A stretch of 28,808 nucleotides of DNA from a virus. The notes beneath the pieces are model-generated. The model saw only the letters and a program-made list of their open reading frames with translations, had not been told where the DNA came from and did no database searches. Location: positions 1 to 28,808 of IMG/VR virus record IMGVR_UViG_3300045284_000365. One strand, written 5' to 3'. Below are positions 20,411-22,847 of the stretch, in pieces. The position numbers and the translations under genes are program-made. Position 1 is the first letter of the stretch. Each line of letters begins with the position of its first letter.

Positions 20411-20423
20411 GTCGTCCCTTCCC

Positions 20424-20442
20424 ATCCCGCGGATATCCCGCG
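20424..20442 (+). repeat. Integrase arm-type site pair, left of attP (putative)
   Basis: Two direct copies of ATCCCGCG eleven bases apart (20424-20431 and 20435-20442). The same pair recurs on the other side of the tRNA-derived core with a single mismatch in 22 bases. Direct repeats on both flanks of a tyrosine-integrase core are the usual arm sites. Confidence 0.65.
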
Positions 20443-20575
20443 ACCCGAACCTACCAACGACCACCAAGAAACCCATAACACCTGCTAGAGCCTACTAACC
20501 CGTTTGCCGGTCTGACCTGCCCCGATACCAAGCGTTTCCGCAGGTCACAGCATCAAACCACCCACACGGACTCCA

Positions 20576-20621
20576 CCCTTACAAGGAAGGGGTCGGGGGT
20601 TCGAGTCCCTCAGCGCCCACC
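20576..20621 (+). other. attP core: 3' half of a tRNA-Val(TAC) gene
   Basis: From the anticodon loop on, the sequence reads as a tRNA 3' half. Anticodon loop CTTACAA (anticodon TAC), 3' anticodon stem GGAAG, variable GGGTC, T arm GGGGG-TTCGAGT-CCCTC, acceptor strand AGCGCCC, discriminator A, then CC. The matching 5' half is absent: upstream CCACC cannot pair with GGAAG, and no D arm or 5' acceptor strand occurs. This is the identity segment a phage carries to rebuild the tRNA on integration, so this is attP rather than a tRNA gene. Confidence 0.85.
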
Positions 20622-20681
20622 CCCGAAACCCCTGCTCAGCGCCTGTTTGTCTCGGGATGACAAACCCGGCGGCCGGTGCCC

Positions 20682-20720
20682 ATCCCGCGAATATCCCGCG
20701 GCTCACGTCGCCGTCCCGCG
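20682..20720 (+). repeat. Integrase arm-type sites, right of attP (putative)
   Basis: ATCCCGCG at 20682-20689 and 20693-20700, eleven bases apart as on the left side, plus a variant GTCCCGCG at 20713-20720 inside the 3' end of the neighbouring small gene. These are 60-100 bases from the core. Confidence 0.65.
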
Positions 20721-20975
20721 AAGTTGAGCCGCCAAGTCCTTTCGTCGCTCATTGACACAGCCCCATCCGCCGAGGTCGATTTGCATGGCGCCGCACGCGC
20801 ATCGCTCAACAAGCGTGAACTCATCCATCCATCCCCGCGTTTGTGTCCAGCACTTGTGTCGCTTCCGGGGAAGTGGCGCGTTGTACCAGCCGACGCCATC
20901 GAGGTGCCACAGTTCGGCTCGGCCTCTGACCGACACCGACTCGTCGTAGACGTAGCGGTCAGTTTCCGCGGTCAT
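20703..20975 (-). CDS. Small Cys-containing protein downstream of integrase
   Basis: A 90-residue protein. Its ATG overlaps the integrase stop (ATGA), so the two are coupled. Sequence: VYDESVSVRGRAELWHLDGVGWYNAP, then KRHKCWTQTRGW and the CACGAM motif (with CWT and a later WGC), suggesting a small zinc-binding or beta fold. Similar short genes occur in actinophages without known function. Its position in the integrase operon makes an integration or lysogeny role possible. Confidence 0.7.
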   Translation of the reverse strand: MTAETDRYVYDESVSVRGRAELWHLDGVGWYNAPLPRKRHKCWTQTRGWMDEFTLVERCACGAMQIDLGGWGCVNERRKDLAAQLRGTAT

Positions 20976-22105
20976 TTTGCTTCCTTTCGGATCGGTACCA
21001 CCGGCGCCCGTTCGACACGCTGCGTTCGCGCCGTCTCGACCATCGCGTCAAGGCCGCGCGCCACCGCACCGTCACGGGTCTGGACGGTGTGTTGATACTT
21101 CGCGGCGGCACGCGTCGACGAATGGCCGATGCGCGCCATGATGTCGCGCGGTGTCGCACCGGTCGCCGCCGCCATCGTCCCCGCCGCATGCCGTAGATCG
21201 TGCAGGTGCAACTCGGGACGGCCGATGGCGTCGCGCGCCGTCGCCCATGCCCGGTAGATCGCCTTCGGCCGCAACGGCACACCCCGCGCGCCGACGAACA
21301 CCGGCGCGTCACGGTCGGCCGGGGTGAACCGGTCCAAGTGTTCGGCGAGCACGTCGCGCACGACTGCCGGCAGTGTCACCGTCCGATACCCGGCACGCGT
21401 CTTCGGTTCCTTCACGACACGCCGGCCGCCGTCGACGAACACATGCTCCACCTCGACGACCACGACGCCGTGGACCAGGTCGACGTGGCGGCGCCGCAGG
21501 CCGATCAGTTCACCGCGACGCAACCCGGCGAACCCGGCCAACACGACAACGGCACGGAACCGTTCGTCGATCGCGTCGACCAGCTCGAGCACCTCGCTCG
21601 GTGACACGTACGGCCGCTCCGCAGACCGGTCCTCCGAGGCGCCAGAGATGCGACACGGGTTCTTCGCGATGATGCCGTCACCGACGGCCTCGTTGAGCAC
21701 ACGCCGCAACACCCGGTAAGCCGACGCCGCCACCGACCACGACCGCCGCTCCACCAGCTCGCTGTGCCACAGCCGCACGTCTTCCGGTCGTAGCTTTCCC
21801 AACGGCCGGCGGCCGAGCACGTCGGCGATGTGCAGGTTCCACGCCTGCTCGTATCGTGCCCGTGTCGTCTCGGCGAGCCGGGCCCGGTTCGACGCCCACC
21901 ACGACACCCAGTAGTTGTTCAGCGTGCGTCGACCGTTGGCCGGGTCGATGGCGATACCCAACACCGCGGCCGCTTCCTCGGTGGCGGCATGAGCACGCGC
22001 GTCGGCGAGCCGATCGAAACTACGGGAACGCTCCCTGCCGTCGACGCGCCAGCGCACCTCGTAGCGGACACCGCCAGCGGTCTGCCGTTTCTCGATGTGT
22101 GCCAT
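20972..22105 (-). CDS. int: Tyrosine site-specific integrase
   Basis: Catalyses attP x attB recombination. 377 residues from ATG 22105; a longer frame upstream lies inside the preceding HTH gene and is rejected. The N-terminus (residues ~1-50) is an arm-binding-like beta domain (GVRYEVRWRVDGRERSRSFDRLADARAHA). The core-binding SAM-like domain spans ~60-155, and the catalytic domain ~165-360 with Arg196 (GLRRGEL), Lys235 (PKT), His302-xx-Arg305 (HDLRH), His328 (IGHSS) and nucleophile Tyr337 (KYQHT). The gene faces away from its promoter towards attP, 350 bases away. The upstream HTH gene ends one base before its ATG. Confidence 0.95.
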   Translation of the reverse strand: MAHIEKRQTAGGVRYEVRWRVDGRERSRSFDRLADARAHAATEEAAAVLGIAIDPANGRRTLNNYWVSWWASNRARLAETTRARYEQAWNLHIADVLGRRPLGKLRPEDVRLWHSELVERRSWSVAASAYRVLRRVLNEAVGDGIIAKNPCRISGASEDRSAERPYVSPSEVLELVDAIDERFRAVVVLAGFAGLRRGELIGLRRRHVDLVHGVVVVEVEHVFVDGGRRVVKEPKTRAGYRTVTLPAVVRDVLAEHLDRFTPADRDAPVFVGARGVPLRPKAIYRAWATARDAIGRPELHLHDLRHAAGTMAAATGATPRDIMARIGHSSTRAAAKYQHTVQTRDGAVARGLDAMVETARTQRVERAPVVPIRKEAK

Positions 22106-22106
22106 C

Positions 22107-22397
22107 TCAGCCGCGACCGTATTTGCGTTGCGCCGCCTGCCGGGAGGACAGGCCGAGTTCATCGGCGATCTCCACCCACGACGCCTTCTGTGCCCGTGCC
22201 GCGTCCACGGCGTCCTGCACGACCTGCTCGGCGGCTGCCAGTTTCGCGTCAGCTTGATTGCGCTCGCGAGCGGCGCGTCCAACGGCGACGAGCGCGTCCC
22301 ACCGGTCCCTGTCCATGTCGAGTGGTGGCCGTCCGCGGGGCACAAGTCCCTGACTAGGACGTTCGCCCACGTTTATCAATTGTGTCATCACCTTCAT
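22107..22397 (-). CDS. Small HTH DNA-binding protein, first gene of the integrase operon
   Basis: A 96-residue protein, helical and Arg/Ala-rich (RWDALVAVGRAARERNQADAKLAAAEQVVQDAVDAARAQ). It ends in a helix-turn-helix (ASWVEIADELGLSSRQAAQRKYG, residues ~70-93), a motif common in small actinobacterial DNA-binding proteins. The predicted promoter places transcription start within about three bases of the ATG at 22397, so that start is chosen; ATG 22388 is the alternative. Candidate lysogeny regulator, possibly acting on the twin dyads in its own promoter. No typical cI-like repressor is seen elsewhere. Confidence 0.7.
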   Translation of the reverse strand: MKVMTQLINVGERPSQGLVPRGRPPLDMDRDRWDALVAVGRAARERNQADAKLAAAEQVVQDAVDAARAQKASWVEIADELGLSSRQAAQRKYGRG

Positions 22398-22404
22398 GAC
22401 ACAA
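22380..22404. promoter_or_regulatory. Operator-like dyad over the operon start
   Basis: Perfect 9-bp inverted repeat TTGTGTCAT-N7-ATGACACAA. Its inner part has the form TGTCA-N9-TGACA, shared with a second dyad 47 bases away. It covers the predicted transcription start and both possible start codons of the HTH gene. Confidence 0.7.
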
Positions 22405-22405
22405 G

Positions 22406-22435
22406 GTATTACCCCCAGAGGGTGAGAGTTGTCAA
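22406..22435 (-). promoter_or_regulatory. Promoter of the integrase operon
   Basis: On the minus strand, consensus -35 TTGACA (22435-22430), an 18-base spacer, and -10 TAATAC (22411-22406). Transcription would begin at about 22398-22400, giving a leaderless or nearly leaderless mRNA for the HTH gene, integrase and small Cys protein. Confidence 0.75.
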
Positions 22436-22448
22436 CGTCATGGTGACA
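22430..22448. promoter_or_regulatory. Second operator-like dyad on the -35 box
   Basis: TGTCA-N9-TGACA, the same half-sites and spacing as the dyad over the start. The left half is the complement of part of the -35 hexamer, so a protein bound here would block RNA polymerase. Confidence 0.65.
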
Positions 22449-22643
22449 TTTTTGCACCTTTTATCCCTGCTTGGTAGCTATTTGTGGACTTTGGTGGATA
22501 TCAGAATTCACAGCCTGTGGATTGTCGTAACCGCTTGTAATGTCACGGGTAGTGGGAGCAGACTACCTACCGGTAGCGACCAACACGGAACGCCCAAGAC
22601 CCCGGCGCTCACGCTGGCCTCGAAAGAACGAGGTTCGAGCACG
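22449..22643 (+). promoter_or_regulatory. Upstream region of the early operon
   Basis: 195 bases with no gene and lower GC than the surroundings, between the divergent integrase and early operons, so it should hold the rightward early promoter. A weak pair TTGGTA (22471-22476) / TGGATA (22495-22500) with an 18-base spacer is the best I can offer. GGTAG half-sites recur: 22473-22477, 22548-22552 and, inverted at CTACC, 22563-22567, ending in the palindrome CTACCGGTAG (22567-22576). Promoter assignment is tentative. Confidence 0.4.
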
Positions 22644-22847
22644 ATGGGGAACGAGGATTCAGACTGGCTCAGGTCCGACGAACTCGCCGTCTACGTACGA
22701 CGATCGATCTGGACCATCTACGACTGGCGCAAACGCAAAGTCGGGCCGCGCCCACAGAAAATCGGCGGCCTCCTCATGTACCCGAAAGACGTCGTACACG
22801 ACTGGATCGACGACGGCGGCCGGCTCGAACCGTGGGACCAGCAGTGA
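22644..22847 (+). CDS. Excisionase-like HTH protein (MerR/AlpA type)
   Basis: A 67-residue protein that is essentially one winged helix-turn-helix: LRSDELAVYVRRSIWTIYDWRKRKVGPRPQKIGGLLMYPKDVVHDWIDD. This is the HTH_17/excisionase pattern, with the recognition helix near SIWTIYDWRKR and wing GGLLMYPK. Upstream in-frame sequence has no protein-like character, so ATG 22644 is used, with ACGAGG about ten bases ahead. First gene of the early operon, divergent from the integrase. It may be Xis or an early transcription regulator. Confidence 0.8.
   Translation: MGNEDSDWLRSDELAVYVRRSIWTIYDWRKRKVGPRPQKIGGLLMYPKDVVHDWIDDGGRLEPWDQQ

Follow-up and report, generated by a model that had tools for sequence, protein, structure and literature searches.

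At this locus a small HTH gene heads a leftward operon that continues into a tyrosine integrase gene and a further short ORF, while a gene for an excisionase-like HTH_17 protein points the other way (Table 1); the window referred to throughout is the whole stretch of viral DNA analyzed, 28,808 nucleotides long. The integrase matches phrog_1 in a profile search (E 2e-63) and is ~32% identical to L5-type integrases, and the HTH protein matches phrog_686 (E 5e-6), a family of small actinophage proteins. The 90-aa ORF at the end of the operon has no counterpart at the same place in the relative L273, described below. Rightward past the excisionase-like gene lie RusA-like, exonuclease, possibly RecT-like, and replication genes. 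A scan of a subset of the ORFs, on a contig that may lack a short end, detected no cI-like protein; in family-level searches no toxin gene was recognized beside the HTH gene, whose neighbors are the integrase gene and the divergent excisionase-like gene.

Table 1. Features of the integrase operon, its upstream region, and the attP region (window coordinates)
Feature	Position	Strand	Remarks
Arm-type repeat, copy 1	20421..20442	+	Presumed integrase arm-type repeat, CCCATCCCGCGGATATCCCGCG
attP core	20576..20621	+	46 bp, identical in L273; looks like a tRNA 3' half (Val-TAC by eye)
Arm-type repeat, copy 2	20679..20700	+	Presumed integrase arm-type repeat
90-aa ORF	20703..20975	-	Overlaps the integrase stop (ATGA); no family match
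Tyrosine integrase	20972..22105	-	L5-like; starts one base past the HTH stop codon
96-aa HTH protein	22107..22397	-	phrog_686/RelI/ClpC2-N-domain family; proposed autorepressor
Operator O1 (predicted)	22380..22404		TTGTGTCAT-N7-ATGACACAA, perfect 9-bp arms; HTH gene start codon(s) within; kept in L273
Candidate -10 hexamer TAATAC	22406..22411	-	Predicted, weak; partly conserved (TACTTA in L273)
-35-like hexamer TTGACA	22430..22435	-	Predicted from sequence; identical in L273; absent from promoter-scanner calls
Operator O2 (predicted)	22430..22448		TGTCA-N9-TGACA; overlaps the -35-like TTGACA of the leftward promoter; kept in L273
Conserved intergenic block	22472..22540		58/69 identical to L273; repeated TCCACA/TGTGGA motifs
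Excisionase-like HTH_17 protein	22644..22847	+	Divergent

A pattern search of the window located two exact copies of TGTCA-N9-TGACA, one at 22383-22401 and one at 22430-22448, with a start-to-start distance of 47 bp; no others occur in the 28,808-base record, the search having covered the whole IMG/VR virus contig. Dinucleotide shuffling of the 298-bp intergenic region produced an arm of at least 9 bp in 48 of 5000 trials (~1%) but never a twin dyad of any kind (0/5000; 5-bp arms, gap 3-12, within 100 bp). When up to two mismatches were tolerated, the window contained 11 dyads against 9.6 expected; there is no enrichment and therefore no dispersed operator network in the genome. A candidate third half-site, AATGTCAC at 22539-22546, was dropped because it is not kept in L273.

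Read along the minus strand, O2 ends in TTGACA and is followed by 18 nt, TAATAC, 8 nt, and the ATG at 22397 inside O1, with a second in-frame ATG of the HTH ORF at 22388. The short distance from TAATAC to the ATG suggests that the predicted mRNA would be leaderless or nearly so. TAATAC matches TATAAT at only three of six positions and drew no call from the promoter scanner; the promoter and its start point therefore remain predictions. The first-pass annotation had described an operon whose leading gene encodes a small HTH protein and twin dyads with identical half-sites and gap, 47 bases apart, the one at the start codons extending to a perfect 9-bp arm, and all of this is borne out by the profile match and the exact search. 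It had also placed the dyads over the -35 hexamer, the predicted start site, and the start codons: the overlap with TTGACA and with the start codons stands, and the start site keeps the status of a prediction.

The relative L273 came from a search of viral contigs with the attP core, which matched this one other record alone. Its integrase DNA is 81% identical to that of the window, its HTH protein is identical at 50 of 99 aligned columns, and the excisionase-like gene is conserved. Both dyads are kept in a promoter region that has otherwise diverged strongly; they are again 47 bp apart, and O1 again contains the HTH start codon. Of the half-site bases, 19 of 20 are identical, as against 26 of the 71 other bases at 22370-22460 (Fisher p 1.8e-6) and only 10 of the 28 bases between the dyads. 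Elsewhere the L273 record has a single further dyad site, with one mismatch. Conservation of the dyads in diverged relatives, which the earlier annotation had proposed as a check, is thus observed in this close relative and, as described next, family-wide. HTH, integrase, and portal peptide patterns recovered no usable close relative from viral and genome contigs (one search led only to a 5.8-kb contig whose portal is 22% identical), and the exact 25-bp dyad had no match in viral contigs.

Protein-similarity searches of IMG/VR and GenBank phages yielded homologues of the HTH protein, which were reduced to 23 at <85% identity, 21 of them with upstream DNA. All palindromes with 5-bp arms and gaps of 3-15 were ranked across these 21 loci between -450 and +60 of the HTH gene; the top three, GTCAA with a gap of 7 (12 loci), TGTCA with a gap of 9 (10 loci), and GTGTC with a gap of 11 (6 loci), are registers of one motif, GTGTCAA-N7-TTGACAC, and the best unrelated motif occurs in 3 loci. 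Counting only the 19 loci found by protein alone, which leaves out the window and L227 (G001, found via its own dyads), 14 have TGTCA-N9-TGACA, exact or with one mismatch, no more than 450 bp upstream of the HTH gene or just inside it, and in the other 5 no such motif was found from -450 to +60. Near the HTH gene, exact sites are 44-fold denser than in the remainder of these loci (9 versus 3; p 3e-9).

Arthrobacter phage Maggie gp20, Gordonia phage GMA5 gp18, Microbacterium phage PensacolaC28 gp19, and Nocardia phage NBR1 gp51 belong to the same phrog_686 family, and, as in the window, most of the actinophage loci inspected have a dyad at or upstream of the gene. The Maggie dyad ends 2 bp before the gp20 ATG, the GMA5 dyad occupies the 3' end of the HTH gene, ahead of the integrase, and the operons of two Streptomyces plasmid homologues have at their start twin dyads spaced by 28 bp; twin-dyad spacings within the family are 47, 46, 27, and 28 bp. 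In GMA5 and PensacolaC28 the HTH gene precedes the integrase gene, as it does in the window, but a separate repressor gene stands in front of it, and other family members lie in structural and replication regions with no integrase annotated in the stretch fetched. These loci also differ from the window in having mostly single dyads and a GTGTCAA half-site consensus, from which three of the four window half-sites depart by T or C in place of A at the inner base; the window protein has one extra residue in the turn.

Searched against the PDB, the family profile matched RelI (9sdc, E 8e-11) and the ClpC2 N-domain (8ada, E 0.003), and a profile built without the window protein recovered that protein at E 7e-10 and RelI at E 6e-13 (search space set to 10,000). 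The homology spans both the HTH and the helical dimer part, shows a conserved SW...SRQ.AQ..(Y/F/W)G, and places the window protein in the ClpC2-N-domain/RelI/phrog_686 family. A structure model of the 96-aa protein, confident in the HTH, has helices at residues 30-45, 49-69, 74-81, and 86-93; its Foldseek comparison with the PDB gave no significant match, the hits being generic HTH proteins (Fis, DeoR; Z about 5), with 8ada and 9sdc absent.

ClpC2 (Rv2667) represses its own promoter via CGTCAAC-n5-GTTGACG, as established by reporter, deletion, and gel-shift experiments (Taylor et al. 2023, PMC10030653). Its operator, clpC2o, lies 1-2 nt before the ORF, and many actinobacteria have a second copy upstream; the copies overlap the -35 and -10 elements, the mRNA is probably leaderless, and dimerization through the N-domain matters (PMC10030653). 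The window matches this layout closely, with a homologous N-terminal domain, a palindrome in the same register (GTCAA-N7-TTGAC, the inner base deviating in three of four half-sites) at the start codon, a second copy over the -35 hexamer, and a proposed leaderless mRNA. It differs in that the phage protein ends just past the HTH, at 96 aa, and so lacks the C-terminal ClpC1-like, cyclomarin-binding Clp domain and, for want of it, any known inducer; in that its gene heads an integrase operon; and in its half-sites, which read TGTCAT, TGTCAC, or TGTCAA where ClpC2 has CGTCAAC. RelI (Rv2664, PDB 9sdc) is likewise a small protein with the same domain and an RQ-containing HTH, but its gene lies beside a toxin gene; the RelS-RelI study found no upstream inverted repeats, its authors question whether RelI binds DNA, and the RelI HTH contacts the toxin (PMC13284704). 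Autorepression therefore need not be common to all members of the family. The recognition helix of the L5-type repressor begins with an R-Q pair that touches guanines on both strands (PMC9283540); by analogy, the conserved R-Q pair of the window family suggests a reading of the GTC of each half-site. The open-access papers searched do not connect the phage family with the ClpC2 operator.

We propose, at a probability of about 0.8, that the twin dyads form the tandem operator of a ClpC2-type autorepressor, the 96-aa HTH protein, which would control the integrase operon. An HTH dimer would set one recognition helix (SRQAAQ) on each TGTCA half-site; when occupied, O2 would cover the -35 hexamer and O1 the transcription start and the start codon, and once enough HTH protein had been made, the HTH-integrase operon would shut itself off, giving a burst of integrase early in infection and low steady expression afterward. 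The sites, their conservation, the family-wide association of gene and motif, and the homology come from the present analysis, and the action of ClpC2 on the same motif in the same layout comes from the literature; from these we infer dimer binding and repression in the phage, the start point, and the timing. Self-regulation by the first-gene HTH protein, already suggested by the first-pass annotation, thus stays a prediction but one strongly supported by dyads kept in L273 and across the family and by a homologue, ClpC2, that is an experimentally established self-repressor on the same motif. The mechanism is ordinary; what is new, and well supported, is a stand-alone phage autorepressor of the ClpC2/RelI type with twin operators on an integrase operon.

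The same annotation went further and suggested a compact lysogeny switch without a classical cI-type repressor. In a full switch of this kind, the dyads would be the operators and the HTH protein an immunity repressor that also silences the divergent excisionase/early promoter in place of cI. The divergent layout and the lack of a cI-like protein among the ORFs scanned accord with this idea, as do the twin TGTCA-N9-TGACA dyads between XRE repressor-integrase and divergent genes in unrelated Clostridia-type phages and the dyads of this form in several intergenic places of phage G003. However, cI-type and stoperator systems have operators at lytic promoters or dispersed, and this genome has two sites only: no dyad marks any other promoter, lytic ones included (in L273, one 1-mismatch site lies beyond the pair), O2 is ~200 bp from the excisionase start, and homologues occur in regions with no annotated integrase. 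The gene order of GMA5 and PensacolaC28 (repressor, HTH, integrase) includes a separate repressor, and the HTH protein therefore fits the role of an integrase governor better than that of an immunity repressor. We consider the switch unlikely, and the claim that the locus replaces cI is not supported. Mycobacteriophage BPs gp33 offers a related comparison, being a small HTH regulator that adjoins the integrase and has operators in the divergent region; its operator is a 12-bp palindrome, CGACATATGTCG, found at several loci, and the repressor gene contains attP (PMC4557955). Assignment of the window to this type, with integration-dependent immunity, was rejected, since its attP core lies downstream of the operon, outside the HTH gene, and its dyads are confined to one locus; membership in the L5-type repressors was also considered and rejected.

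The identity of the binding protein can be questioned as well. The motif differs little from the ClpC2 operator, CGTCAAC-n5-GTTGACG (PMC10030653), and a host protein such as host ClpC2 might bind the phage dyads, so that integrase expression would follow a host stress signal; yet the window half-sites depart from the ClpC2 consensus, and the motif accompanies the phage HTH gene in unrelated genomic locations and hosts, an association that points to the encoded protein and leaves the host reading quite improbable. Still less probable is binding by the excisionase-like HTH_17 protein, the region's second small DNA-binding protein, whose gene is conserved in L273: the motif is linked with phrog_686-type genes in phages that have no such excisionase annotated beside them, and the GMA5 dyad sits by the HTH-integrase junction, away from the excisionase. 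That the dyads are RNA hairpins or chance palindromes is scarcely credible, for although shuffling can yield the 9-bp arm by itself, it never yielded twin identical arms and gap, and in L273 the gap and spacer bases diverge while the half-sites persist at constant spacing.

With autorepression of the integrase operon as the preferred reading, the HTH family gains a predicted binding site and, through it, a predicted function, self-repression. Annotated members, so far listed only as "HTH DNA binding protein" or "hypothetical protein," become tied to a biochemically proven mycobacterial regulator, and low integrase in a temperate actinophage with no visible cI receives a testable account. On a broader and distinctly doubtful conjecture, the stand-alone ClpC2/RelI DNA-binding domain and its palindromic operator would form a portable self-limiting cassette, spread by actinophages and here metering integrase; since host ClpC2 or RelI recognize almost the same site or partner, the phage protein might even cross-talk with the host Clp stress response or with RelS-type toxins.

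Similar dyads also occur elsewhere. A scan of viral contigs for twin dyads returned at least 119 loci, mostly enterobacterial-looking and repeat arrays, and a scan of genomes matched mainly Opitutales (Verrucomicrobiota). The viral scan also found a set of Clostridia-type phages (L047, L059, L067, L094, L097, and similar ones) in which an XRE repressor-integrase pair is separated from a divergent Cro-like gene by twin TGTCAA-N7-TTGACA dyads 47 bp apart; these dyads are apparently convergent with those of the window, because the protein beside them is XRE and not of the window HTH family. The 68% GC phage L228 (G003) has seven TGTCA-N9-TGACA sites, one with a mismatch (record positions 21656, 21699, 22442, 22471, 29019, 34522, and 34580), plus an XRE-like repressor-integrase pair, and thus combines this motif, in a dispersed set of operators, with another protein family. 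Two Rhodococcus plasmids (L269, L272) carry HTH homologues with a different nearby dyad, TGTAAAGGTAGTCTTTACA, which may reflect a specificity change inside the HTH family. The repressor genes of GMA5 (L240, 2930-3217) and PensacolaC28 (L246, 2022-2435) read in part like a translated tRNA 3' end (RDSNPEPADL and WEFESLRAHT, respectively) and contain what reads as a tRNA-derived attP, as integration-dependent immunity would predict.

The remaining conserved elements surround the operon. No tRNA gene or Rfam tRNA match was found at attP, as expected for half a tRNA. The repeats that flank it (CCCATCCCGCGRATATCCCGCG) do not resemble the dyads and are likely the integrase arm sites; the dyads themselves were rejected in that role, the flanking repeats being of the CCCATCCCGCG type, another sequence. 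Between the operators and the excisionase-like gene, the block at 22472-22540 contains no dyads and looks like a set of binding sites (excisionase or DnaA-like); it may be the site of the divergent early-gene promoter or of excisionase sites. Adjoining the attP core, a dyad GTTTGTC-N7-GACAAAC at 20645-20665, kept in L273 (GTTTGTCTCCGGATGACAAAC) amid differing surroundings, is possibly an excisionase or terminator element. A stem, TGACCTG...CAGGTCA, lies near attP at 20513-20548; L273 keeps it (TGACCTGGGGA...TCCCCAGGTCA) with in-stem changes, and because the stem survives these changes it may be a structured RNA or a terminator.
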